A DNA stretch of 64,000 bases from Limisphaerales bacterium (lineage in GTDB: Bacteria > Verrucomicrobiota > Verrucomicrobiia > Limisphaerales > SXTU01): assembly GCA_009773355.1 (NCBI GenBank), contig WRPG01000018.1:1-64000 (forward strand), given 5' to 3'. Position numbers and translations under genes: made by a program. Shown here in pieces: positions 5,630-61,236 of this stretch (within the stretch, counting starts at the first letter, position 1; each line of letters begins with the position of its first letter). A model generated the notes under the pieces. It saw only the letters and a list, made by a program, of their open reading frames with translations, was not told the DNA's origin and made no database searches.

Positions 5630-5651
5630 GGAGCGCGGCATTCATGCCGCA
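5630..5651. repeat. REP-like half element, family B (B4)
   Basis: Single arm reading GGAGCGCGGCATTCATGCCG, a GGAG tag followed by a small hairpin. It matches the arms of the complete B elements at 14763 and 21057. It lies just after the bcp stop codon. Confidence 0.6.
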
Positions 5652-5785
5652 GCCGGCTCCAACCGGAAAAGTGCGCCCGAACAACCCCGGCTTTTCCACG
5701 CTTCCGCAGCCTGAAGTCCGCGCTCCGGGACATGGCCCTGGCCTTCTGACTTTCCGTCTTCGGGCCGGAGGTTAAGCTCCCGGCC

Positions 5786-14762: not shown

Positions 14763-14851
14763 GGGAGCGCGGCCTTCAGGCCGCAGCAAGCAGCGGGAAT
14801 TCGAGAGCGATGTTCGCGCCACCACCATCTGCGGCGTGAACGCCGCGCTCC
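14763..14851. repeat. REPIN-like palindromic element, family B (B1)
   Basis: Left arm GGAGCGCGGCCTTCAGGCCG with its CAG tail; right arm CTGCGGCGTGAACGCCGCGC ending in CTCC. Each arm is a hairpin with a GGAG tag at the outer edge. The element ends one base before the stop codon of the zinc ribbon gene. Confidence 0.85.
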
Positions 14852-21056: not shown

Positions 21057-21161
21057 GGAGCGCGGCCTTCAGGCCGCAGAATCGTTCCTTCGCCCGGCGG
21101 GTTCTGGTGCATGGGACGCGTTTGTGCGCCTTGACCTTCTGCGGCGTGAACGCCGCGCTCC
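21057..21161. repeat. REPIN-like palindromic element, family B (B2)
   Basis: Left arm GGAGCGCGGCCTTCAGGCCG; right arm CTGCGGCGTGAACGCCGCGC plus TCC. The spacer is about 55 bases. It lies between the convergent glycosyltransferase and outer-membrane protein genes. Confidence 0.85.
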
Positions 21162-23241: not shown

Positions 23242-24492
23242 TCAAGGCTCACGGGCCGCGCGCTCCACGGCATCCACCACCGCCGCGACCGGGAGCGAGT
23301 TCAGGCACCGGAAGTCAATCGGGCATTCGCGCAGGAAACACGGAGCACACGCCGCCTCGCCGCGCAGGATCGTGTGGCGGGTGCCGCCCGGCAGGCCGGG
23401 ACCGGTCAGCGCCGGCGACGTGCTGCCGAACAAGGCGACGACCCGAGTGCCCACGGCGGCGGCGACGTGCATCGGCCCCGTGTCGTTGGTGAGCACGACC
23501 CGGCAGGCGCGGAGCGCCGCGCAGAGTTCGCGGAGCGAGGTGCGGCCCGCGAGCTTCACAACGCTGGCTGCCGGCGCGGTGTCGAGCGCGGCGGCGATCT
23601 CGTCCGCCAGCGCGCCGTCCGCCGGGCCGCCGAAGATGACGAAGGCGCAGTTGAGCCGCGCCCGCAGTTCCCTCGCCGTCGCCACGAACCGTTCGGCCGG
23701 CCAGCGCTTGGCCGGGCCGTATTCCGCGCCGGCATTCAGGCCGATGAGCACGCCGTCGGGCAGATGAAACTTCGCCTTCACCGCCGCGACCTCGGCATCG
23801 GTGACGGCGATGAACGGCGCGAGCGGTTCCGCATTCGCGCCGAGCGCGGCAGCGAGATGGAGGTAGTGGAAGAGGTGGTGACTCGCCCGGAGCGCGGCGT
23901 TCACGCCGCTTCCGCGTCCGTCTTGCACAGCGGCTTGAAGCGGCCTGAAGGCCGCGCTCCCGTCCGCGTCCGCCACCAGCCGCCGCACTTCCTCCGCCGT
24001 CCGCTTCCGCATCTTCACCACGTCCGTGCGCCAAGGGACTGCGTCGGTGAGCAGCCAGTTCCGCCAGCTTCCCGCGTAGCCGATGCGCCGGGGAATTCCC
24101 GCCAGCCGCGCTTCCAGCCCGGTGCGGATGGAGTTGGGCAGCACGAGCGCGGCGTCGAAGCCAGCCGCGCGTGCCGGCGACTTGCGGTCGCCGTCTGCGG
24201 GGTGCGGCTCAGACGGCGACGGCAAGTCGCTGGCACGGCGCAGCCGGCGCGCGATGCTGAACACACCTTCCCTCGGTGCGAAGGTGATGACTTCATCCAC
24301 CGCCGGATGTCCCGTCCACAACCCCGCCAGCTTCGCGTGCGTGAGCAGCGTGATGTGGGTTTCCGGCAGCGCCTCGCGCAGCCGCAGCAGCGCGGGCGTG
24401 GTCATCACGGCGTCGCCAAGCCAGTTCACGCCGCGCACGAGAAGGCGGCGAGGATGGAGGATAGAGGATAGAGGATAGAGGGGCGTCGTCAT
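23242..24492 (-). CDS. waaF: Lipopolysaccharide heptosyltransferase (GT9, WaaF-like) with in-frame repeats
   Basis: 416 residues, about 65-70 longer than usual GT9 enzymes. It adds heptose to the LPS inner core from ADP-heptose on the cytoplasmic side. Conserved parts: LLVRGVNWLGDAVMTTPAL, IGLNAGAEYGPAKRWP, and the nucleotide-binding LTNDTGPMHVAAAVGTRVVALFGST near residue 345. The surplus comes from repeats: residues 86-107 are a family C element and 178-201 a family B element, both in frame, and residues 2-15 come from the H words. The start overlaps the acyltransferase stop (ATGA). The WaaF versus WaaC assignment is by similarity only. Confidence 0.88.
   Translation of the reverse strand: MTTPLYPLSSILHPRRLLVRGVNWLGDAVMTTPALLRLREALPETHITLLTHAKLAGLWTGHPAVDEVITFAPREGVFSIARRLRRASDLPSPSEPHPADGDRKSPARAAGFDAALVLPNSIRTGLEARLAGIPRRIGYAGSWRNWLLTDAVPWRTDVVKMRKRTAEEVRRLVADADGSAAFRPLQAAVQDGRGSGVNAALRASHHLFHYLHLAAALGANAEPLAPFIAVTDAEVAAVKAKFHLPDGVLIGLNAGAEYGPAKRWPAERFVATARELRARLNCAFVIFGGPADGALADEIAAALDTAPAASVVKLAGRTSLRELCAALRACRVVLTNDTGPMHVAAAVGTRVVALFGSTSPALTGPGLPGGTRHTILRGEAACAPCFLRECPIDFRCLNSLPVAAVVDAVERAAREP
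23889..23960. repeat. REPIN-like element, family B, in frame inside waaF (B3)
   Basis: Arms GGAGCGCGGCGTTCACGCCG and CGGCCTGAAGGCCGCGCTCC, complete with both outer GGAG/CTCC tags. It encodes waaF residues 178-201 (SAAFRPLQAA and GSGVNAALRA) without breaking the frame; the element length is a multiple of three. Confidence 0.85.
24171..24236. repeat. REPIN-like element, family C, in frame inside waaF (C2)
   Basis: Left arm GTGCCGGCGACTTGCGGTCG plus CCGTCTG; right arm CAGACGGCGACGGCAAGTCG plus CTGGCAC. It matches the intergenic C1 element at 61160. It encodes waaF residues 86-107. Confidence 0.85.
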
Positions 24493-24532
24493 GCTGCTTG
24501 GCTATCTTCTATCTTCTCTCCTCTATCCTCTT
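24452..24532. repeat. Word-type inverted repeat, family H, at a gene junction
   Basis: Left arm of AGGATAG/AGGATGG words (GAGGATAGAGGATAGAGG), right arm CTATCTTCTATCTTCTCTCC. It straddles the ATGA overlap of waaF and the acyltransferase gene, so one arm encodes the WaaF N-terminus (PLYPLSSILHP) and the other the acyltransferase C-terminus (KEDRGEKIEDSQ). Confidence 0.82.
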
Positions 24533-25418
24533 TCCCTCCCCGCCACTTCCCTTCCTTCCACCGGTTGTGAACCCAGAACCAGTTGGCCGGGTCGCGGCGG
24601 ATGGCGGTCTCGAAGGTGCGGTTGATGTCCCGCGCGATGTCCTCGACCGGGCGCGGCTGGGCGTCGAGGCGCGTCGGAATCTCGCCGCCCAGCTCGATGC
24701 GCCAGCGACCCGGGGCCGTGCGGTGGCAGATGGCCGTGAAAAGCCGGCAGCCATAGCGCTGGGCCAGCACCGGCGCAGCCAGGCTCGTCGAGCAATCGCG
24801 CCCGAGGAACGGCAGCCGCGCCCCCCGGTCGCCCGCGTGCTGGTCTGCGAGCAGGCCGAGCATGAGGCCGGGCTGCCCCAGCGCGGCCTTGAGCGCGGCG
24901 GCGTCCCGACGCCGCTCGAAGTAGCGCGCGCCGGACCCGGCCCGGAGCGATCGCATGAGCGCGTCCACGCCCGGCTGGCGCAGGCCGCGATAGGTCGTGG
25001 CCATCTGGTAGCCGGGCAGGAAGAGGTTCGTCCGCGCGTATAGCTCGAAGTTGCCGAAGTGCCCGATGGCCACGACCACGCTGGGCCGCACGCCATTGGC
25101 GGCCGGCGGGAACAGCTCCATCCCGGTGCAATCCAGCACGGCGCGGATGGCCTCCGCGTCCATGCCGGCGGTCTTCACCGCGCAGGCGAAGCTCTCGCCG
25201 ATGCGCTCGAAGTTCTCGCGGGCCAAAGCGCGGACTTCGGCGGCGGACTTCTCCGGGAAACACTCCGCGAGGTTCCGCCGGGCGACCTTGCGATGCCGCC
25301 CATCCAGCCAATACGCCGCGCCGCCGAACACGCGCCCCAGCCATGCCACGGTCGCGAGCGGCAGCGCCCGCAAGCAAGCGATAACGAGGCGGGCGACGAG
25401 GGTGAGGAATGCGTCCAT
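24489..25418 (-). CDS. Lipid A acyltransferase (LpxL/HtrB-like)
   Basis: 309 residues from ATG 25418 (MDAFLTLVARLVIACLRALP). It transfers a secondary acyl chain onto lipid A at the inner membrane. One N-terminal helix anchors it. The catalytic H-x4-E is in IGHFGNFELYA, a second segment is LADQHAGDRGARLPFLGR, and the final NWFWVHNRWKEGKW matches the family ending. The last about 13 residues after WRGG come from the H repeat. It lies between waaF and an HNH cassette that separates it from lpxK. Confidence 0.9.
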   Translation of the reverse strand: MDAFLTLVARLVIACLRALPLATVAWLGRVFGGAAYWLDGRHRKVARRNLAECFPEKSAAEVRALARENFERIGESFACAVKTAGMDAEAIRAVLDCTGMELFPPAANGVRPSVVVAIGHFGNFELYARTNLFLPGYQMATTYRGLRQPGVDALMRSLRAGSGARYFERRRDAAALKAALGQPGLMLGLLADQHAGDRGARLPFLGRDCSTSLAAPVLAQRYGCRLFTAICHRTAPGRWRIELGGEIPTRLDAQPRPVEDIARDINRTFETAIRRDPANWFWVHNRWKEGKWRGGKEDRGEKIEDSQAA

Positions 25419-41234: not shown

Positions 41235-41391
41235 GTCTCACGCGGAGCGCGACGCCGCTTTCGTCCGCACAACTGCCTCACGAATTTCGCAGCCTCCCCG
41301 CCCGCTCGAAAGCGCCGTCGCCGCTGCGCTCTGCCGGCGCAGTCCAAGACGCGCCCGTGGGCGGGAGACTCCTGTCCCCGCAGTAGCCGAC

Positions 41392-43806
41392 TCAGGAAGA
41401 GCCGCGTCGCCAAAGGACGACGCAGCCCAGCAGCGTGAGCGCCGAGATGCCTGCGCCGATGCGGAAAGGCCAGTCCACGTAGTCGAGGCGGACGGTGCTC
41501 TTGCCGGCGGGGATGGGGATGGCTTGGAAGGTGTGGTTGGCTCGGAGCACGGGCGCGGTTTGGCCGTTCACCGTCGCGCGCCAACTTGGGTAGAAGTTCT
41601 GCGCGATGACAATTCCATGTGCTGCATTCGCCTCAGCCAACACTTCAATGTTCATTGGGCTGAACCTGCTGACCCGCACAGCCCCGGTCAGGAACGGTGC
41701 TTCTGGCCGGCTGAAGTCAAACTTCATCTCATAACTCTCCGGTGTGGTCGGTGTGGCTATGAAGGAAAGCTGGCGCGGGTTCCAGTCTGGCTCCGAAGTT
41801 TTTTTGAAGCCGTGCGATGGGCTTGTCTCTTCAACTACGGCGGCAGGCAAGCTCACCAGCGGCATCGCCGTCTCTCGCCGTTCCCACTGCATCAACTCGC
41901 CGGGCTTCGTCGTGTGCGTCACGCCGAGGAAGTCCATGAGGTTCGCGGGCGCGGGGTTCGTGGTGCCGTAGAGGAAATACTCCACGTCGTTCCACTCGCG
42001 CGTCACGAGCGTGGACGCGCCGTTCACCTTGGGCAGGCCGTCGAGCAGGTTCAGGTTGCCCCAGAACGCCAGCCGCTGGCCGATGAAGTCGTCGTAGAAC
42101 TTCGGCACCATCCGCGTGTGCAGTGCGAGTTCGGCCTGCGGACTGAGCATGATGCGCGACTCGCCGAGCTTCGGCGCGGGCGTGAGCGCGCCCTTGCTGG
42201 CGTGGTAGGCGGTGGCGAGACCCGGCTCGAAGGCGGAGGCGGGGATGGTGGCAAGCAACGCTGGGTTCTTGCGCCACCCGGCCGTCGCGATGATGGCGAG
42301 AAACAACAGTGTGGCCATAGTTCTGCGCCGTGGCAGCGGTGAAAGCAGCGCCACATTCAGCACCAACAGCGCGACCATCCAACTGGTCAGTCCTGTAGCG
42401 GAGCCGGGCGTTCGGGTGCCGACGGAGAATGGCCAGAGCCACCGTTGCACCGACACGACGATGCCGAGCCAGAGGATTAGCCCAATCGGGTGGTCAAATT
42501 TCGCGGCTGCTAGCAGCGCCCTGACTCGGTCGTAGAACTTGTCGAGCGAGTCCATCGCTCCGTCAGTTCGCGGGTTCGCTTCCGCGCGGAGCCGCTCGGC
42601 GATGGGGACAAGCACAGACATTCCCCACGCCGCCAGCAACGGCACGGTGAAGGCCGCGAGCAGCAGCGCCTTCACCGGGAAGCGCACCACGCCCAGCGGC
42701 AGCACCTCGCGCAGCCAGCGCCAGAGCACAAAGTTGTCGCCCATCGCCAGCAGCACGGCCAGCAGCGTCGTCGCGCCGAGCAGCTTCACCTCCGGTGTCC
42801 GCACGCGCCACGCCGCCAGCAGCGCCAGCGTCAGCGGGACGATGCCGAGATAGACCGACGGGAAGAACGACTGCCCGATCATCACGAACACGCCCTGCTC
42901 GGTCTGGAAGTTCATGAACAGCGGGAAGAACAGGTTCACCCAGCCCCAGCCCGGCAGCGACCAGAACGTGTTGACCGCGTCCCCGCTGCGCTGCGACAGC
43001 GAGAGGAGTTGGAAGAAGGGGAGGAGCTGCGCGGCGCATAGGCCGGTGATGAGGGCGATGGTGGACGTAATACGTAATGCGTAATTCGTAAGAAAACCTC
43101 GGCTTACGTTTTCCGTTTTACGCTTTACGGCGGCGTCCATCACCGCCAAGGCCGTGAGAAGCGCCCACGTCAGCAAAATGATTTCCGGCGCACCGGTGAG
43201 CATCTGCATCGCGCCGGCCAGCGCGGCGAGGACGACGCTTCGCCCGCCTTCCTGCCACGAGCGCCGCACCGCCAGCATCACCCACGGCATCCAGCCGAGC
43301 GCGACGAGGTAGTTCGGGTAGATGACGCAGCCCAGCACCAGCCCGCTGAAGACGAACGCCACGCCCGCCACCGCCGCGCCGAAGCGGCTGCCCGTCCACC
43401 GTTCCGCCAACGCGCGCATCCCCATCCCGCCGAGGAACAGGTGCGCCACGCAGAAGAACCCCAGCGACCACGGCAGCGGCAACAGCAGGTAAATCAGCGC
43501 GCCGGGGTAGAGGCAGAGCGTGTTCCACTGAGCGAGGAAGGGCGCGCCGCAGTTCACGTAGGGATTCCACAGCGGGAAGAAGTCGCCGCTCCAGAAACAC
43601 TCGCGGTGGAAGTGCGCGAACGGGTAGCCGAGGAACCCGTAGTCGCGATAGAAGAACGCCTCGTCGCCGAAGAGCACGCGCCAGAAGGTGGCGGCCAGCA
43701 GCGCGGCGAGGATGAGGGCGAAGCGGCCGGGCGTGAGCCAAGCGTCTGCCGCGCCGAGGTCCGGGGTCTGGGGTCTGGGGTCTGGAGTTGAGGTGTCGGA
43801 AGTCAC
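41392..43806 (-). CDS. YfhO-like membrane protein, paralogue 1 of 4
   Basis: 804 residues from GTG 43806. About a dozen hydrophobic helices are followed by a soluble, beta-rich C-terminal domain (from about residue 560) and a final helix. The segment YPFAHFHRECFWSGDFFPLW followed by NPYVNCGAPFLAQWNTLC (about residues 60-100) is the conserved family signature. YfhO-type proteins are predicted GT-C glycosyltransferases acting from lipid-linked sugars; no activity is proved for this subgroup. Residues 226-247 come from an E element; residues 2-16 from TCTGGGG words. Confidence 0.85.
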   Translation of the reverse strand: MTSDTSTPDPRPQTPDLGAADAWLTPGRFALILAALLAATFWRVLFGDEAFFYRDYGFLGYPFAHFHRECFWSGDFFPLWNPYVNCGAPFLAQWNTLCLYPGALIYLLLPLPWSLGFFCVAHLFLGGMGMRALAERWTGSRFGAAVAGVAFVFSGLVLGCVIYPNYLVALGWMPWVMLAVRRSWQEGGRSVVLAALAGAMQMLTGAPEIILLTWALLTALAVMDAAVKRKTENVSRGFLTNYALRITSTIALITGLCAAQLLPFFQLLSLSQRSGDAVNTFWSLPGWGWVNLFFPLFMNFQTEQGVFVMIGQSFFPSVYLGIVPLTLALLAAWRVRTPEVKLLGATTLLAVLLAMGDNFVLWRWLREVLPLGVVRFPVKALLLAAFTVPLLAAWGMSVLVPIAERLRAEANPRTDGAMDSLDKFYDRVRALLAAAKFDHPIGLILWLGIVVSVQRWLWPFSVGTRTPGSATGLTSWMVALLVLNVALLSPLPRRRTMATLLFLAIIATAGWRKNPALLATIPASAFEPGLATAYHASKGALTPAPKLGESRIMLSPQAELALHTRMVPKFYDDFIGQRLAFWGNLNLLDGLPKVNGASTLVTREWNDVEYFLYGTTNPAPANLMDFLGVTHTTKPGELMQWERRETAMPLVSLPAAVVEETSPSHGFKKTSEPDWNPRQLSFIATPTTPESYEMKFDFSRPEAPFLTGAVRVSRFSPMNIEVLAEANAAHGIVIAQNFYPSWRATVNGQTAPVLRANHTFQAIPIPAGKSTVRLDYVDWPFRIGAGISALTLLGCVVLWRRGSS
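43066..43129. repeat. Word-type inverted repeat, family E, in frame inside yfhO paralogue 1 (E2)
   Basis: Arms CGTAATACGTAATGCGTAAT plus TCGTAAG and CTTACGTTTTCCGTTTTACG. It encodes residues about 226-247 of the protein (KRKTENVSRGFLTNYALRIT). The same insertion is found at the homologous site in the other three paralogues. Confidence 0.88.
43763..43792. repeat. TCTGGGG word repeat, family Q (Q1)
   Basis: Tandem GGTCTGGGGTCTGGGGTCTG words inside the 5' end of yfhO paralogue 1, encoding its N-terminal TPDPRPQTPDL. Also seen at 46347 and 58712. Confidence 0.75.
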
Positions 43807-43834
43807 GCGGGCTTTGTCTTTGTAGGAGACGACG

Positions 43835-46396
<2,562 letters not shown>

Positions 46397-46411
46397 GATG
46401 CTTTCGTGGGC

Positions 46412-46481
46412 GTAGGTGACGACGTTAGGAGTCTCTGACTTTCTCCTCGGTTGAAGTGAGACTCCTCACGTCGTCTGCTAC
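46412..46481. repeat. REPIN-like palindromic element, family A (A3)
   Basis: Arms GTAGGTGACGACGTTAGGAG plus TCTC and GACTCCTCACGTCGTCTGCT plus AC. It straddles the stop codon of yfhO paralogue 3, encoding its last residues (ADDVRSLTSTEEKVRDS). Confidence 0.88.
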
Positions 46482-48782
46482 GGGGGTTGGTCTTGCTCGC
46501 CACCACAGCACACCGCAGATGACGAGGCCAAGCGCGGACAGGGCGACGCCGAGTTGGAAGCGGCGGTCCACATACTCCAGCCGCACCGTGCTCCGGCCTG
46601 CGGAGATGGGCACAGCCTGGAAGGCGTGGTTCGCGCGGAGGATGGTTGCGAGCTGGCCGTTCACGGTGACTCGCCACGGATGATAGAACGCTTGGGCGAT
46701 GACGACCAGCGTGGGTGCGGAGGATTCCAGTTCACACTCGATGCGGTGGGCGGTCCAATTCGCAGACAAGACTTTAGCCGTAGCCGCGTTGGAGGCAGGC
46801 ACCTGCGCCTTGTCCCACGGATGAATGAAGACTGTTTCGGCGGGGTTCCAGTTCGGGCCGGCCATCGCGGGCAGGGAGACTTCTGCGGCGGCGAACTCGG
46901 GGCGTTGCCCGGCGGTGATGAGCGGGAGCGCAGTGTCGCGGCGGTGCCACTTGAAGATGTTCGTCGGCGAGCTGACGTGCGCGATGCCGAGGAAGTCGGC
47001 GAGCGGGCCGGGCAGCGAGTTGGTGCCGCCGGACAGAAAGAGGCGCGCCTCGACCTCCTGCTGCTCGCGCAAGTAGAGGCTGAAGATCCCGTCGGTCTTG
47101 GCGAGGCCGTCGAGGAGATTGAGATTGTCATAAAGCCCGATGCGCTGGAGGAGCAGCGTCTCGTCGAGCTTCGGCAGCATCTTGCTTTTGAACTCCATCA
47201 GCGCCTGCCAGGTGAGTGACGCACGGGCAGCGCCGTCGCGCGGCGCGGGGGCGAGCGCCTGCAAGTCCGGCTGGCCGGGCTGGAGGTAGGCTGGGGCGAC
47301 GGTCGGCGTGAGATCGGGCAAGTGGGAGCGCAAGTCCGCGAAGACCAGTCCAAGCACGGCGAGGCTCCAGAGGAAATTGCGAGTGCGCGTCTCCGCGTTC
47401 CGCAAGCCCAGCACGGCGGCAACGGTGAAGATGAGGAAGACACCACCTGCCGTGGCGCTGTAAAACAGGAGCAGCAGCGTCTCCAGACCTTCGCCAGCCA
47501 GCGGGTTGAGCCAGCCAAGCATGGCGATGAGCGCGACGACGGCGGCCAGCACGGCGGCGATGGCGCGCAGGCGATGGCGGGCCATGCGGGCGCGGGTTTC
47601 GTCCACGGTAGCAGCCGACGCGAGGAGGCGCTGACCCTCATTTGGCGTTTCGGGTTTGGAGCTTGAGGTTTCGGCGTCGCGGAACAGTTCCTTCAGCGCG
47701 AAGGCGGCGAGCATCGGCAGGATGAAGGTGAGCGGAATGACGAACTTCACCGGGTAGCGCATGACGCCGAGCGGCAGCACGCGCTCGAACAGGGAGTAGA
47801 GGAATCCGTTCTTGCCCAGCGCCAGCACGAGGCAGATCGCACCGAGCAAGGACAACACGCGTGAACGCCGGTCTGAGACCCGCAGCACGGCGAGCAAGGC
47901 CAGTGCAAGCACACCAGCCCCGGCGTAGTAGGATGAGGTCCAGTTCTGCCCGCTGTGCAACGGCACGCCCGGCGAGGTGAGAATGCAGCGGAACAGCGGC
48001 ACGAGGTAGTTCGCGAAGCCCCATGCCGGCAGCGACCACACGGAGTCGCCGAAGCCAGCGTCGCGCTGCGAGTGACGGAGGAGGTCGAGGAAGGGGAGGA
48101 GCTGGGCGGCGGAGAGGAGGGAGACGAGGGCGGCGATGCCCGTAAAACGTAATGCGTAATGCGTAAGGGGCGCTGGGCTTGCGGTTTCCGTTTTGCGTTT
48201 TACGCAGTCAGCGGCCAGCAACGCGCCGCAGATGAGCCAGGTGAACACGATGACTTCCGGCGCACCTGTGAGCATCTGAAGCGCGCCGACGAGCGCGGCC
48301 ACGACGAGCTTTCTTCCGCCTTTGCGCACGCTGCTCTCCACCGTCAGCACCACCCACGGGAGCAGGCCGAACGCGGCGATGTTGTTCGGCCACATGAGCG
48401 ATTGCTGCATCAGGCCGTGGAACGCGTAGGCCACGCCCGCGACGGCGGCGGCGAAGTTCATGCCTGTCCAACGCCGCGCGACAGCATACGCACCGAGGCC
48501 GCCGAGCCAGAGGTGCAGCAGCATGAACGCGCCCAGCGACCACGGCAGCGGCAGCAGCAGGTAACAGAGCGAGCCGGGGTAGAGCGTCATCGTGTTCCAT
48601 TGCGCGAGGAAGGGCAGGCCGCAGTTGTTGAGCGGGTTCCAGAGCGGCAGCTCGCCGCGCCAGAAACACTCGCGGTGGTAGTGCGCGATGGGGTAGCCGA
48701 AGACACTGAAGTCGCGCAGGATGAAGGTCGCCGAGCCGAGCAGCACGTCGGGCCACGACGCAAAGATGAGCGCTGCGAGCAA
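46425..48782 (-). CDS. YfhO-like membrane protein, paralogue 3 of 4 (N-terminus altered by a repeat)
   Basis: 785 residues from TTG 48782. An upstream in-frame CTG just after a repeat-borne stop codon would add about 15 codons (LNTPALNLFTPPRF), matching the FTPGRF segment of the other copies. No ATG or GTG fits, so the 5' end seems to have been replaced by an I-type repeat. Signature HYHRECFWRGELPLWNPLNN is intact. It carries an E element (residues 193-214) and, in the variable linker, an F-like word stretch plus half A element (about residues 366-392). Its last residues come from A3. Confidence 0.8.
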   Translation of the reverse strand: MLAALIFASWPDVLLGSATFILRDFSVFGYPIAHYHRECFWRGELPLWNPLNNCGLPFLAQWNTMTLYPGSLCYLLLPLPWSLGAFMLLHLWLGGLGAYAVARRWTGMNFAAAVAGVAYAFHGLMQQSLMWPNNIAAFGLLPWVVLTVESSVRKGGRKLVVAALVGALQMLTGAPEVIVFTWLICGALLAADCVKRKTETASPAPLTHYALRFTGIAALVSLLSAAQLLPFLDLLRHSQRDAGFGDSVWSLPAWGFANYLVPLFRCILTSPGVPLHSGQNWTSSYYAGAGVLALALLAVLRVSDRRSRVLSLLGAICLVLALGKNGFLYSLFERVLPLGVMRYPVKFVIPLTFILPMLAAFALKELFRDAETSSSKPETPNEGQRLLASAATVDETRARMARHRLRAIAAVLAAVVALIAMLGWLNPLAGEGLETLLLLFYSATAGGVFLIFTVAAVLGLRNAETRTRNFLWSLAVLGLVFADLRSHLPDLTPTVAPAYLQPGQPDLQALAPAPRDGAARASLTWQALMEFKSKMLPKLDETLLLQRIGLYDNLNLLDGLAKTDGIFSLYLREQQEVEARLFLSGGTNSLPGPLADFLGIAHVSSPTNIFKWHRRDTALPLITAGQRPEFAAAEVSLPAMAGPNWNPAETVFIHPWDKAQVPASNAATAKVLSANWTAHRIECELESSAPTLVVIAQAFYHPWRVTVNGQLATILRANHAFQAVPISAGRSTVRLEYVDRRFQLGVALSALGLVICGVLWWRARPTPVADDVRSLTSTEEKVRDS
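47608..47633. repeat. Half REP element, family A variant, in frame (A7)
   Basis: Single arm GTAGCAGCCGACGCGAGGAG plus GCGCTG, next to a TTTGGAGCTTGAGG word stretch. It encodes part of the variable linker of yfhO paralogue 3 (EGQRLLASAATVD). Confidence 0.7.
48141..48204. repeat. Word-type inverted repeat, family E, in frame inside yfhO paralogue 3 (E4)
   Basis: Arms CGTAAAACGTAATGCGTAAT plus GCGTAAG and the inverted GGTTTCCGTTTTGCGTTTTA plus CG. It encodes residues 193-214 (KRKTETASPAPLTHYALRF region). Confidence 0.88.
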
Positions 48783-56442: not shown

Positions 56443-56543
56443 CCGTGCCGGCGGCTTCCAGCCGCCGTCCGAAGTGTCCAGCAGGACGAAGGTTTTCCGC
56501 GCTTTCCACGCGTCCCGACGGCGGTTGCAAACCGCCGGCACGG
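56443..56543. repeat. REP-like palindromic pair, family J
   Basis: Arms GTGCCGGCGGCTTCCAGCCG plus CCG and GGCGGTTGCAAACCGCCGGC plus AC, each with its own hairpin (apices TTCCA and TTGCAAA). The middle includes GTCCAGCAGGAC. It lies between the convergent NIPSNAP and ABC permease genes. Confidence 0.82.
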
Positions 56544-56546
56544 CCT

Positions 56547-59500
56547 TCACTGATTCCGCAGTGCGTCGAGCAACTGCCCGCGCAGCGCGGAGACCGTCGC
56601 CAGCCACGTCCACACCAGGCCACTCACCAGCACACCGCCAAGCGTCAGCGCGAGCGCGGCCACGGGCAAATCCCCCGCGCCCAGCACCGACGGCAGCACC
56701 GCCACACCCGCCGCCACCACGCCGCTCAACAAGCCCAGCAGCAGCAGCGCCGCGTGCTCGCTCAGGACGAGCCAGCGCAGCGCCTTTGCGCGGAAACCTA
56801 GCGCGAGCAGCAGCGCCAGCTCGCCACGCCGCTCCAAAACATTGCGCAGCACCACCACGCCGAGGCCCGCGCTGCCCAGCAGCAGGCCGAGGCCGCCGAG
56901 GATTTGGAACGTGCCGAGGTAGGTGTTCTGCACCGCGTTGAGCTGCGCCATGCGCCGCGTCGCGGGCGTGAGTTCGAGGCCGAAGTCGCGCAGCGCGCGC
57001 GTGAGCGTGGCGGACACGTCGGCGACGCGGTTGGTCGGCGCGTCCACGAGGAACCAGCGGTAGCCGGCCTCGCTCGGGAAGCGCGCGGTGAACTCGTCCT
57101 CCGCGATGATGAGGTTGCCTTGCAGAATGGAGTTCGCCACCGCGCCCACGAGCCGCAACCGCACCGGCCGGCCGCGCTCATCCGGCTCGAGATACTCGAT
57201 GATGTCGCCGACCTTCTTGCCCATCGCCCAGAGGATGGAGTTTTGGTCGGCGATGGCGGGAATGACTTCGCCGGTGCCGGGTCGTGGAAGGTCTCCCCCG
57301 GTCGCGAACAAGCGCGCGCGCTCATCGCTAGCTTGGGCAATTCCCTTGTTCAATTCGAGGAAATCCAACCACCTCCAGCCGATGCTCCCGCCTTCCCATT
57401 CCTTTGCGAAAGTGAATGCCTTCCGCTGTCTGAGCAGTTCCATTTTCACTCCCAGCAACCTCGGCTTCTGCGCGCGGTTCAAGTTCAAGCAGCTCGCGTC
57501 GTCGCCATCACGCACGCGGAAGGGCACCACGCTCACGCCGTCGAGCGCCTTCTCGTCCAGCCCCAGCGCCTCGCGGCCCGCTTTCGTGTTCAAGTCCTGC
57601 ACCACTGGCAGCGTGCTCTCGCCCAGCAGCGCGAAGCCGCCGGTGCCGGAGCTGCGCTTCGTCGCGTTCGCATTCTCGTCCAGCCGGAACACGCCGATGG
57701 ACAGCACCAGAAAGCTGCCGCACGCGAGCATCGTGACCGTCGCGAGGCTGCGCGAGCGGCGACGCGTGGTGTTACGGATGCCGAGGCTGGCGAGGTTCAG
57801 CGCCGCCGCCGCCTCGCTCCGCTCCAGCCGCGTGAGCAACGCCGCCGTGAACGCCAGCGCCGCGATGAGCAGCAACGCCCCCGCCCCAAAGAACGCTCCC
57901 GCATTCGCCGTCTGCCCCGTGGCCACCGCCCAGCCGAGGAGCGAGAGCGCGAGGAGCAGGCAAGCGCCGCCCAGTAGCGCGACATTCCGATGTCGCGACC
58001 CGCCGCGCCCCTTCGCCGCCGCCAGCTTCCCGCCTTCCGCTACCTCCGACTCGACATTGGAATGTCGAGCTACCTCTGTCGGTGCTCCGCCTGCCCCACT
58101 CTCACCCCTCGCCGACTGACCACTGATTACTGAAAACTGATTACTGCCCACTTCCTCCCCCCCTCCCGCCAGCAGCACCCGCGCCGGCTGACGCACCTGT
58201 TTCCGCAGCGCCAGCCACAGGCTGAACACCGCCACCAGCACCGCGCCCGCGAACCCGCCCGCCAGCGTGGCTGGCTCCGCGTGGAAGCGCAGGTCGCTCG
58301 TGCCCACGGCGTCGCGCCAGACGGTCGAGAGGCCGTGCAGCATCGCGCGCGCATACCAAACCGCGCCGACCGCCCCGAGCGCCGCGCCCAGCACCGCGAG
58401 ACCCGCGCCCTCGCCGAGCAGAAGCCGCCGCACTTGTTTCGGAGTGAAGCCCAGCGCCAGCAGCGTGCCGACTTCCTTCGCGCGCTGCTCGACGCCGAAC
58501 TGGAACAGCAGCGCCACCAGCACGCACGCCGCCACGATGAGGAAGAAGCTGAACCCGATGAACAACCCACCGAAGTCCTGCCCCTCGCGGCTCGCCTTGA
58601 GCGCCTGTTCGCGCACCGGCTGGAAGACGAGGCCGAAGTCGGCGGGCTTGAGCGCGGCGAGGAGGGATTTTTTCAATTCCGCCTTGTAGGTGACGACGTG
58701 AGGAGTCTCTAACTTTGGGGTCTGGGGTCTGGGGTCTGGGGTCTGGGGAGAAGTGAGCCTCCTCACGTCGGCACCTACGGGGAAACGAATGGCCGTCGTG
58801 TCCCCAAATCGGTTGCCCCACATCTTGCGCCCGGCGCTCAGGCTCACGAAGGCTTTCGGCGTGCCGCGCCATAGCTTCCAGTAATCGTCGTCCACGAGCT
58901 TGCGGTGCGTGAGCGGGAAGCCGGCGTCCCAGTCGCCGATGCGCTCGGCCTTCGCGATGCCGGGGAAGTCGGGCATCAGCGTGCGGTCGGCCCACGGCAT
59001 CTGCATGGGCACGACGGAGCGGACGCGGAAGCGGTTCGTGGCCTCGGTGAGCCGCGCGCCGGAGTCGGGCAGGAAGTAGGACAGCTCCAACTCGCCGCCC
59101 GGCTTGAGCTGCAACTGGTCCGCGAGCCACTGGTTCAGGACGATCTCGTCGTCGCGCAAGTCGGCGGGCACGAGCGGCGCACCAGCGGCGGTGACCATCG
59201 GGTAGGCGGTGGCGTTGGTGCCCGAGCGCAGCAGCGTGGCGAGGTAGGTGAGGACGGGCTGCGCGTTGGTGTCCACCGCCAGCGCGGCGCGAACGGCGGG
59301 TGGGTCGAGGAAGATGCGGTCGGTGCGGAGTTCGAGGGCGGAGGAGTTGGTGAGGGGGCGGAGGTCGAGTTGGGCGTCGGCGAGCCGCCATTCCGTCTGA
59401 AGCTGTCCCGGTAAGCCGGGAAAAGCTGAAGGCAAACCTCGGACAGTGTTCAGCAGCAACCTGCCACTCTCAGAATCTTCCAAGAGGACTTCGTCTCTTG

Positions 59501-60272
59501 GTGCGCTAGCCTCTCGGAGTCCAATCCGCGTCATCCATTCCTTAACCTTGTCTCCAGCGACTTGAAATGCTGTCGGCGGCAGCCAACCGGAACGCACATG
59601 AATGCGGTCAACCAATGCTAAACTGGCTTTCTTTTCAGCTCCAGTTCGCTGGGAGAGAAGTGCCAACGGCACAAACGCATTGAACGGCGCGACTTGGTTC
59701 GCCTGCAAACTGAAGCGCCCAAGCTGCTCGTTCCCGACGACCGCGTGAACCCGCAGCCGCAGCGCGACCGACTGGCCGTCGCGCGTGGTGAGCGCCACGT
59801 CCTGCGAGAGCGCGGAAACCTTGTTGATGCGGAGCAGAACTTCGTCGCCCGGCTTGGCGGCGAGTTGGTCGGCGAGCGCCTGGTTCAGCACGACGGAGTC
59901 CGGCGGAACCGTCGCGAAGGGCGGGGCTTTCTCCGCGAGCTTCCAGAAGTCCTCGTCCACGCCGAGGACGTGGATGCGGTTCGCGCGGCGCGCGCCGTCG
60001 GCGGAGTTCGCCGTGCCGGGCAGTGAGAGGACGGGCGCGGCCTTGAGATTTGTGGCCAGTTCGGCGCGGAAGAGCCGGTCGCCGGTGGCCATCGCCGCCT
60101 CGATTTTGCCGAGCCTTGCCAGCGCCATGTCGCGCAGGCTGCCGCGCACGGAGTCGCCCACCAGCAGCGCGCCGATGAGGATGGCGCTGCCCAGCGTCGC
60201 GCCCAGCAGCACGCCCAGATGCGAGCGCGCGTGGAAGCGCAGGCTGCGGAGGATGAGCGTCCCAAGTGTCAT
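56547..60272 (-). CDS. ABC transporter permease, FtsX/MacB-like, with repeat insertions
   Basis: 1241 residues from ATG 60272 (MTLGTLILRSLRFHARSHLG). The start is set by a signal-like first helix (LGATLGSAILIGALLVGDSV); the longer frame upstream is the F2 repeat and another gene. Two FtsX domains are visible (helices about 550-690 and 1085-1235) around large MacB-like periplasmic parts, as in lipoprotein or lipid exporters. Residues 499-529, 709-719 and 734-767 are encoded by A, I and D elements in frame. It works with the ATPase encoded just upstream. Confidence 0.88.
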   Translation of the reverse strand: MTLGTLILRSLRFHARSHLGVLLGATLGSAILIGALLVGDSVRGSLRDMALARLGKIEAAMATGDRLFRAELATNLKAAPVLSLPGTANSADGARRANRIHVLGVDEDFWKLAEKAPPFATVPPDSVVLNQALADQLAAKPGDEVLLRINKVSALSQDVALTTRDGQSVALRLRVHAVVGNEQLGRFSLQANQVAPFNAFVPLALLSQRTGAEKKASLALVDRIHVRSGWLPPTAFQVAGDKVKEWMTRIGLREASAPRDEVLLEDSESGRLLLNTVRGLPSAFPGLPGQLQTEWRLADAQLDLRPLTNSSALELRTDRIFLDPPAVRAALAVDTNAQPVLTYLATLLRSGTNATAYPMVTAAGAPLVPADLRDDEIVLNQWLADQLQLKPGGELELSYFLPDSGARLTEATNRFRVRSVVPMQMPWADRTLMPDFPGIAKAERIGDWDAGFPLTHRKLVDDDYWKLWRGTPKAFVSLSAGRKMWGNRFGDTTAIRFPVGADVRRLTSPQTPDPRPQTPKLETPHVVTYKAELKKSLLAALKPADFGLVFQPVREQALKASREGQDFGGLFIGFSFFLIVAACVLVALLFQFGVEQRAKEVGTLLALGFTPKQVRRLLLGEGAGLAVLGAALGAVGAVWYARAMLHGLSTVWRDAVGTSDLRFHAEPATLAGGFAGAVLVAVFSLWLALRKQVRQPARVLLAGGGEEVGSNQFSVISGQSARGESGAGGAPTEVARHSNVESEVAEGGKLAAAKGRGGSRHRNVALLGGACLLLALSLLGWAVATGQTANAGAFFGAGALLLIAALAFTAALLTRLERSEAAAALNLASLGIRNTTRRRSRSLATVTMLACGSFLVLSIGVFRLDENANATKRSSGTGGFALLGESTLPVVQDLNTKAGREALGLDEKALDGVSVVPFRVRDGDDASCLNLNRAQKPRLLGVKMELLRQRKAFTFAKEWEGGSIGWRWLDFLELNKGIAQASDERARLFATGGDLPRPGTGEVIPAIADQNSILWAMGKKVGDIIEYLEPDERGRPVRLRLVGAVANSILQGNLIIAEDEFTARFPSEAGYRWFLVDAPTNRVADVSATLTRALRDFGLELTPATRRMAQLNAVQNTYLGTFQILGGLGLLLGSAGLGVVVLRNVLERRGELALLLALGFRAKALRWLVLSEHAALLLLGLLSGVVAAGVAVLPSVLGAGDLPVAALALTLGGVLVSGLVWTWLATVSALRGQLLDALRNQ
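57974..58073. repeat. REPIN-like element, family D, in frame inside the ABC permease (D3)
   Basis: Arms GTAGCGCGACATTCCGATGT plus CGC and CTCGACATTGGAATGTCGAG plus CTAC. It encodes residues 734-767 ([12 protein letters not shown] ... GGSRHRNVALLGG). The two arms have diverged (CGCGACATT versus CTCGACATT). Confidence 0.88.
58117..58146. repeat. Word-type repeat, family I, in frame inside the ABC permease (I4)
   Basis: CTGACCACTGATTACTGAAA plus ACTGATTACTG. It encodes SNQFSVISGQS. Together with the D3 element 43 bases away it makes a composite insertion in one linker. Confidence 0.75.
58686..58778. repeat. REPIN-like element, family A, in frame inside the ABC permease (A4)
   Basis: Arms GTAGGTGACGACGTGAGGAG plus TCTC and GAGCCTCCTCACGTCGGCAC plus CTAC. 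A TCTGGGG word run (58716-58750) lies between them. It encodes residues 499-529 (GADVRRLTSPQTPDPRPQTP). Confidence 0.88.
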
Positions 60273-61108: not shown

Positions 61109-61160
61109 GTGTGAAGGGTGAGGGGTGAGGAGTGAAGAGTGAAGAGTGAAGAGTGAAGAG
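61109..61160. repeat. Tandem word repeat, family S
   Basis: GTGAAGA/AGTGAAG words repeated about six times (AGTGAAGAGTGAAGAGTGAA) just upstream of the ATPase start. One arm only; no inverted partner is seen nearby. Confidence 0.8.
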
Positions 61161-61226
61161 TGCCGGCGACTTGCAGTCGCCGTCTGCGAGCCTCGAACCG
61201 GAGCGGCGACTGCAAGTCGCCGGCAC
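61160..61226. repeat. REPIN-like palindromic element, family C (C1)
   Basis: Arms GTGCCGGCGACTTGCAGTCG plus CCG and CGGCGACTGCAAGTCGCCGG plus CAC. Both arms carry a CGACTTGCAGTCG-type hairpin. It abuts the S repeat directly. Confidence 0.88.
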
Positions 61227-61236
61227 GGGCTTCGGC

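Follow-up and report, generated by a model that had tools for sequence, protein, structure and literature searches.

The window analysed here, that is, the whole stretch of 64,000 nucleotides, contains a heptosyltransferase gene, waaF, which is entered twice, each time in frame, by a member of a different family of dispersed palindromic repeats. We interpret both segments as REPIN-like mobile elements that occupy tolerant loops of the protein, are translated along with it, and are kept as near-harmless passengers, the same loops having been reused by other REP families in related species; we assign this reading a probability of about 85%. The elements are called REPIN-like because the GTAG or GTGG tag is absent, though the REPIN architecture is present. 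We refer to the two families as CGTGC and GGAG; these are the C and B elements, respectively, of a first-pass annotation of the same DNA.

Two repeat elements in frame within waaF

The waaF product is 416 amino acids long and matches Pfam family PF01075 (E=7.6e-37). Its nearest relative in the PDB, by sequence and by fold alike (fold search E=9.7e-24), is 1psw, the E. coli heptosyltransferase II, and these matches give it a GT9 domain and a GT-B fold. The first-pass annotation had placed two different repeats in frame inside this gene, with intact GT9 motifs on either side. The repeats are indeed located there, within the slightly refined limits of Table 1; the frame is kept, and the invariant GT9 positions are present in an alignment of homologues. 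It had also described the protein as 65-70 residues longer than usual GT9 enzymes. The product does exceed E. coli WaaF (1psw, 348 residues) by 68 residues, but the two elements supply only some 47.

Table 1. Coordinates of waaF and of repeat elements in the window.
Feature	Position	Strand	Basis and remarks
waaF-type heptosyltransferase gene (GT9), host of both elements	23242..24492	-	ORF; PF01075; 1psw best PDB match
CGTGC-family inverted REP doublet, 68 nt, codons 86-108, peptide RASDLPSPSEPHPADGDRKSPAR	24170..24237		nhmmer family; rare among 110 homologues; same nucleotide position in G002
GGAG-family inverted REP doublet, 72 nt, codons 178-202, peptide GSAAFRPLQAAVQDGRGSGVNAALR	23889..23960		nhmmer family; orthologous copies in G003, G008, G009
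CGTGC-family copy, intergenic	61160..61227		nhmmer
CGTGC-family copy, 99-nt length class, intergenic	56444..56542		nhmmer
GGAG-family copy, intergenic	14764..14851		nhmmer
GGAG-family copy	21057..21161		nhmmer
GGAG-family copy	5630..5726		nhmmer
GTAG-family (A) REPIN, in frame in FtsX-domain gene 56547-60272	58684..58780		
GTAG-family (D) REPIN, in frame in FtsX-domain gene 56547-60272	57973..58073		
GTAG-family (A) REPIN, in frame in ORF 43835-46396	45076..45173		

Short tandem repeats of the GGATAGA type lie between waaF and the next gene (24452-24540). The longest waaF ORF takes its first residues, YPLSSILHP, from these repeats, and the true start may be downstream.

Insertions of selfish DNA often mark pseudogenes, and waaF, together with the other element-bearing genes discussed below, could be read as decaying. 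The frame is open, however, and the GT9 invariant positions are kept. Identity at codon positions 1, 2 and 3 between waaF of the source genome (G000) and that of the relative G009 is 0.84, 0.90 and 0.64: the element-bearing gene is under strong purifying selection. Moreover, mnmE and uvrA, both of them housekeeping genes, are among the hosts, and decay is therefore extremely improbable. No second waaF ortholog free of inserts was found in the genome, where this is the only waaF-type copy detected.

The first site contains the CGTGC element, whose plus-strand ends are CGTGCCGGCGACTTGC...GCAAGTCGCTGGCACG. The corresponding segment is 16-18 residues long in 98 of 110 WaaF homologues (a 17-residue turn in 83 of them) and 34-40 residues long in only 8. 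Among the relatives, the DNA of site 1 is unfilled in G001, G003-G006 and G008-G010; G002 carries the CGTGC element at the identical nucleotide position, and G007 carries another element, of the CCCTCTCCC...GGGAGAGGG type. The segment is thus an insertion into a site that is normally empty among the 110 homologues. At this turn, three more distant homologues (L088, L095, L096) have an insert of yet another, unrelated kind, which is GRGPEILRGAEGKFHAAP-like.

The second site is a loop of variable length among relatives. The GGAG element (plus-strand ends GGAGCGCGGCGTTCACGCCGC...GCGGCCTGAAGGCCGCGCTCC) occupies it in G000, G003, G008 and G009; an E-type GGAG-CCGG palindrome does so in G001, G005 and G010; and a GTAG-GGACGCGC palindrome, scored by pattern only and not by nhmmer profile, does so in G002 and G007. 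That is, 9 of 11 genomes have some REP-type palindrome at site 2, of three types in all. Since the spacers of the GGAG copies in G000, G003 and G009 are related (15/30, 15/30 and 23/30 pairwise), one old GGAG insertion is favoured there. The earlier expectation that an alignment would reveal insertions unique to this protein stands only in part: they are insertions, and palindromic, but relatives share them. Nor did we see, in any relative, the same peptides conserved without the palindromes; relatives that have the segments have the palindromes too.

The source genome is a metagenome-assembled draft of 6.16 Mb in 162 contigs, and its best-matching named waaF homologues belong to Verrucomicrobiota MAGs as well, many of them tagged Limisphaerales or subdivision 3. 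An artefact of assembly or binning might thus be suspected, but orthologous inserts at the same positions in the separate genomes G002, G003, G008 and G009 reduce its probability almost to nil.

An AlphaFold2 model built from 42 sequences has a mean pLDDT of 88 and a pTM of 0.89, with both inserts at about 50-65. The first insert sits between helix 77-87 and strand 114-117, and the second follows helix 166-176. Both segments are thus predicted to be low-confidence surface loops within a confident fold, which agrees with the surface position suggested for them in the first-pass annotation.

Repeat families and their other host genes

Searching the whole genome for the elements yielded 69 matches, with E-values down to 2e-15 for other copies, and dinucleotide-shuffled sequence gave zero family matches; the elements are therefore not chance palindromes. 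In the 810 kb of this genome that were counted, there are 49 places for the CGTGC family, 14 for GGAG, and 37 and 17 for two further families, A and D. A fifth family, E, with a GGAG tag and a different stem, was added after this count. Both waaF families are dispersed, genus-wide repeats with many copies. Each of the two elements, like its family consensus, consists of two REP palindromes in inverted orientation, with conserved arms and variable spacers across the 49 and 14 places. With the tags (CC)CGTG and GGAG, the waaF families fall outside the GTAG/GTGG definition of a REP; families A and D have GTAG. Across unrelated families, element lengths fall into two classes, of about 68-75 and 94-99 nt (e.g. 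24170-24237 and 56444-56542). Elsewhere in the window, a tandem array of paralogous ORFs, each about 800 residues long, has family A elements both inside the ORFs and at their boundaries (41391-48782).

Elements of these families are depleted in genes and yet common there. In an unselected 400-kb sample scored for all five families, 8 of 37 elements lie wholly in ORFs, compared with 83% of the DNA that is coding; 13 more cross an ORF end and 16 are intergenic. The elements thus lie mainly outside genes, as REPINs do. Extrapolating from 37 and 8 per 400 kb, we estimate that the genome has some 570 elements of the five families, about 120 of them wholly in reading frames. Over 1.21 Mb, with ORFs called by a simple codon-usage gene caller, 53 of 168 elements are wholly in ORFs.

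Hosts supported by Pfam include a UvrD-type helicase (six elements), uvrA (three), mnmE and two MFS transporters, as well as a GH31 enzyme, an MBOAT protein and an FAD oxidoreductase. A single Pfam domain spans the insert in the helicase, in MnmE, in the two MFS proteins and in the FAD oxidoreductase, and the reading frame is preserved in every Pfam-supported host. A strict rule that element length be a multiple of three was considered and rejected: in-ORF copies occur in all three length classes, so that small flanking changes must contribute to the frame. In one UvrA (L067:144-3620, residues 1018-1068), a peptide that is itself conserved in relatives, TTVDDIRAWAKERK, lies between two single A-type REPs.

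The preserved frame bears upon the question of whether the segments reach the protein at all. They form strong hairpins in the strand, and one might propose on that ground, the only one in its favour, that RNA splicing or translational bypassing removes them. Frame preservation in all Pfam-supported hosts would then be needless. Furthermore, among five pairs of same-strand neighbours separated by an element, none was found to be a gene split by a frame-breaking insertion: four pairs matched unrelated families, and in the fifth a partner had no match. We consider removal highly improbable. Conversely, the preserved frame and the purifying selection on the host suggest that the inserts are translated.

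Persistence of the inserts and reuse of their sites

According to our preferred reading, a pair of REP hairpins, facing opposite ways across a variable spacer, forms a miniature mobile unit, moved most likely by single-strand transposition of the IS200/RAYT type, as we infer for both waaF families. Such units have landed in two WaaF loops that tolerate extra residues. The arms are stop-free in every frame, and a net insert length that is a multiple of three would have kept the gene open, so that each element would add some 23-25 disordered residues to the protein. Persistence would follow from doing little harm rather than from any usefulness of the peptide; the inserts would be nearly neutral, and copies out of frame or at intolerant sites would be purged by selection. 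In related species, the same loops have taken up other REP families. Of all this, the data show the insertions, their family membership, their frame, their position in loops and the reuse of the sites; the mode of mobilisation, the translation and the near-neutrality are the interpretive part.

Candidate mobilising genes are present. The genome has three RAYT-like genes, bracketed by families D, A and E, respectively. In the last of these (L077:8653-10452), an ORF for a 4-hydroxyproline epimerase runs in frame into the RAYT (599 residues), with E-type GGAG REPINs on both sides. RAYTs bracketed by GGAG-tagged REPINs occur in six genomes; loci of this kind in several genomes of the order are L172, L227, L229, L230, L231 and L235. 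The GGAG family of waaF itself adjoins only a broken RAYT copy, in G006, and for the CGTGC family no adjoining RAYT was found.

Between G000 and G009, the arms of the GGAG element of waaF are identical at 42 of 42 nucleotides, whereas identity is 15/30 in the spacer and 0.65 at fourfold sites. A mismatch-free run of 21 nt, such as the left GGAG arm forms, is seen in only one of 1159 windows of the gene. These sequences offer a lead, namely that the GGAG arms may be conserved more than expected of a neutral passenger, and this counts against the passenger view. They would fit a domesticated element, retained for use either of the arms in mRNA or DNA (as a hairpin or a protein binding site) or of the peptide, as would the frequency with which REP-type palindromes fill site 2. 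Three unrelated families with unrelated peptides alternate at that site, however, and neither the CGTGC element of waaF (G000-G002) nor the A element of uvrA has any excess of conservation over its own gene. Moreover, elements are identified through their arms, so that such a comparison favours cases in which the arms are conserved, and homogenisation between copies would look alike. On balance, domestication seems unlikely.

Reuse of sites extends beyond waaF. At least two families occur at 6 of the 15 element sites of waaF, uvrA and the helicase among relatives, a count to be read with the tendency of the aligner to stack inserts in mind. In the helicase, for example, the loop at residues 472-504 is occupied by family A in three genomes (G000, G002, G005), by CGTGC in G004 and by family E in G001. 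By permutation, 2.6 multi-family sites are expected under uniform placement (18 of 2000 trials reach 6) and 3.4 when inserts are confined to variable columns (76 of 2000). Most of this reuse can be put down to a few variable, tolerant loops, and a targeting mechanism is only weakly supported. It is conceivable, though we would not expect it, that certain loops of housekeeping proteins in this lineage are exchange sites, at which one REPIN family replaces another by conversion or by targeting of existing REPs, with GGAG-tagged, RAYT-linked REPs among the players; the proteins of the lineage would then contain translated selfish peptides that can be swapped. A tree of the genus built from waaF, lpxL and lpxK has poor resolution, and gains and losses of inserts are not countable on it.

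REPs have mostly been treated as extragenic, and the present genome has many in reading frames, including those of genes for DNA repair and tRNA modification. Since one and the same loop may be filled, empty or differently filled within the genus, the uptake, retention and exchange of selfish peptides by proteins can be measured there. There is also a warning for annotation: peptides such as RAGDLQSPS...GDCKSPAR are transposon-derived.

Relation to known repeat systems

The first-pass annotation compared the waaF segments with the palindromic elements of Rickettsia, though in another phylum and with other sequences. A first case outside Rickettsia is not supported: in-frame intragenic REPs have been known since 2013 in many species of several phyla, with most intragenic GTAG repeats in Opitutus terrae, itself a verrucomicrobium (Di Nocera et al. 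2013, PMC3733652). The same study lists uvrA among the hosts, and reports that recB of two Xanthomonas species has different REPs at about one and the same site. The comparison with Rickettsia is apt in part. The elements described here resemble the Rickettsia elements as palindromic selfish DNA in frame in unrelated genes (PMC10969869), but their anatomy is that of REP doublets (REPINs). The Rickettsia elements are about 150 bp long and rickettsial (PMC10969869), and CGTC-tagged (PMC3733652), whereas the elements here are mostly 68-107 nt long with other tags; their published descriptions set the two apart.

The resemblance to REPINs (Bertels and Rainey 2011, PMC3116915) is close: inverted REP doublets with conserved ends and a less conserved spacer, forming a hairpin and present in many dispersed copies. 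Those REPINs were described as extragenic, however, and the waaF families differ from them in tag. As in the RAYT/TnpA-REP systems (PMC2817692, PMC8266576), RAYT genes bracketed by REPINs are found in the genome and in its order, several of those in the order being bracketed by GGAG-tagged hairpins rather than by the GTAG or GTGG types of these studies.

The nearest precedent is the set of intragenic GTAG REPs of Opitutus terrae, in the same phylum, which are likewise small palindromes or dimers in ORFs, contribute 20-30 residues, and sometimes occur twice in one gene (PMC3733652). The waaF families are tagged CGTGC and GGAG, unlike the GTAG and CGTC repeats of that study. In-frame REPs as such being already known, what the present analysis adds is the tags, the density, and, beyond Di Nocera et al. 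(PMC3733652), a turnover of unrelated families at fixed loops traced across a genus.
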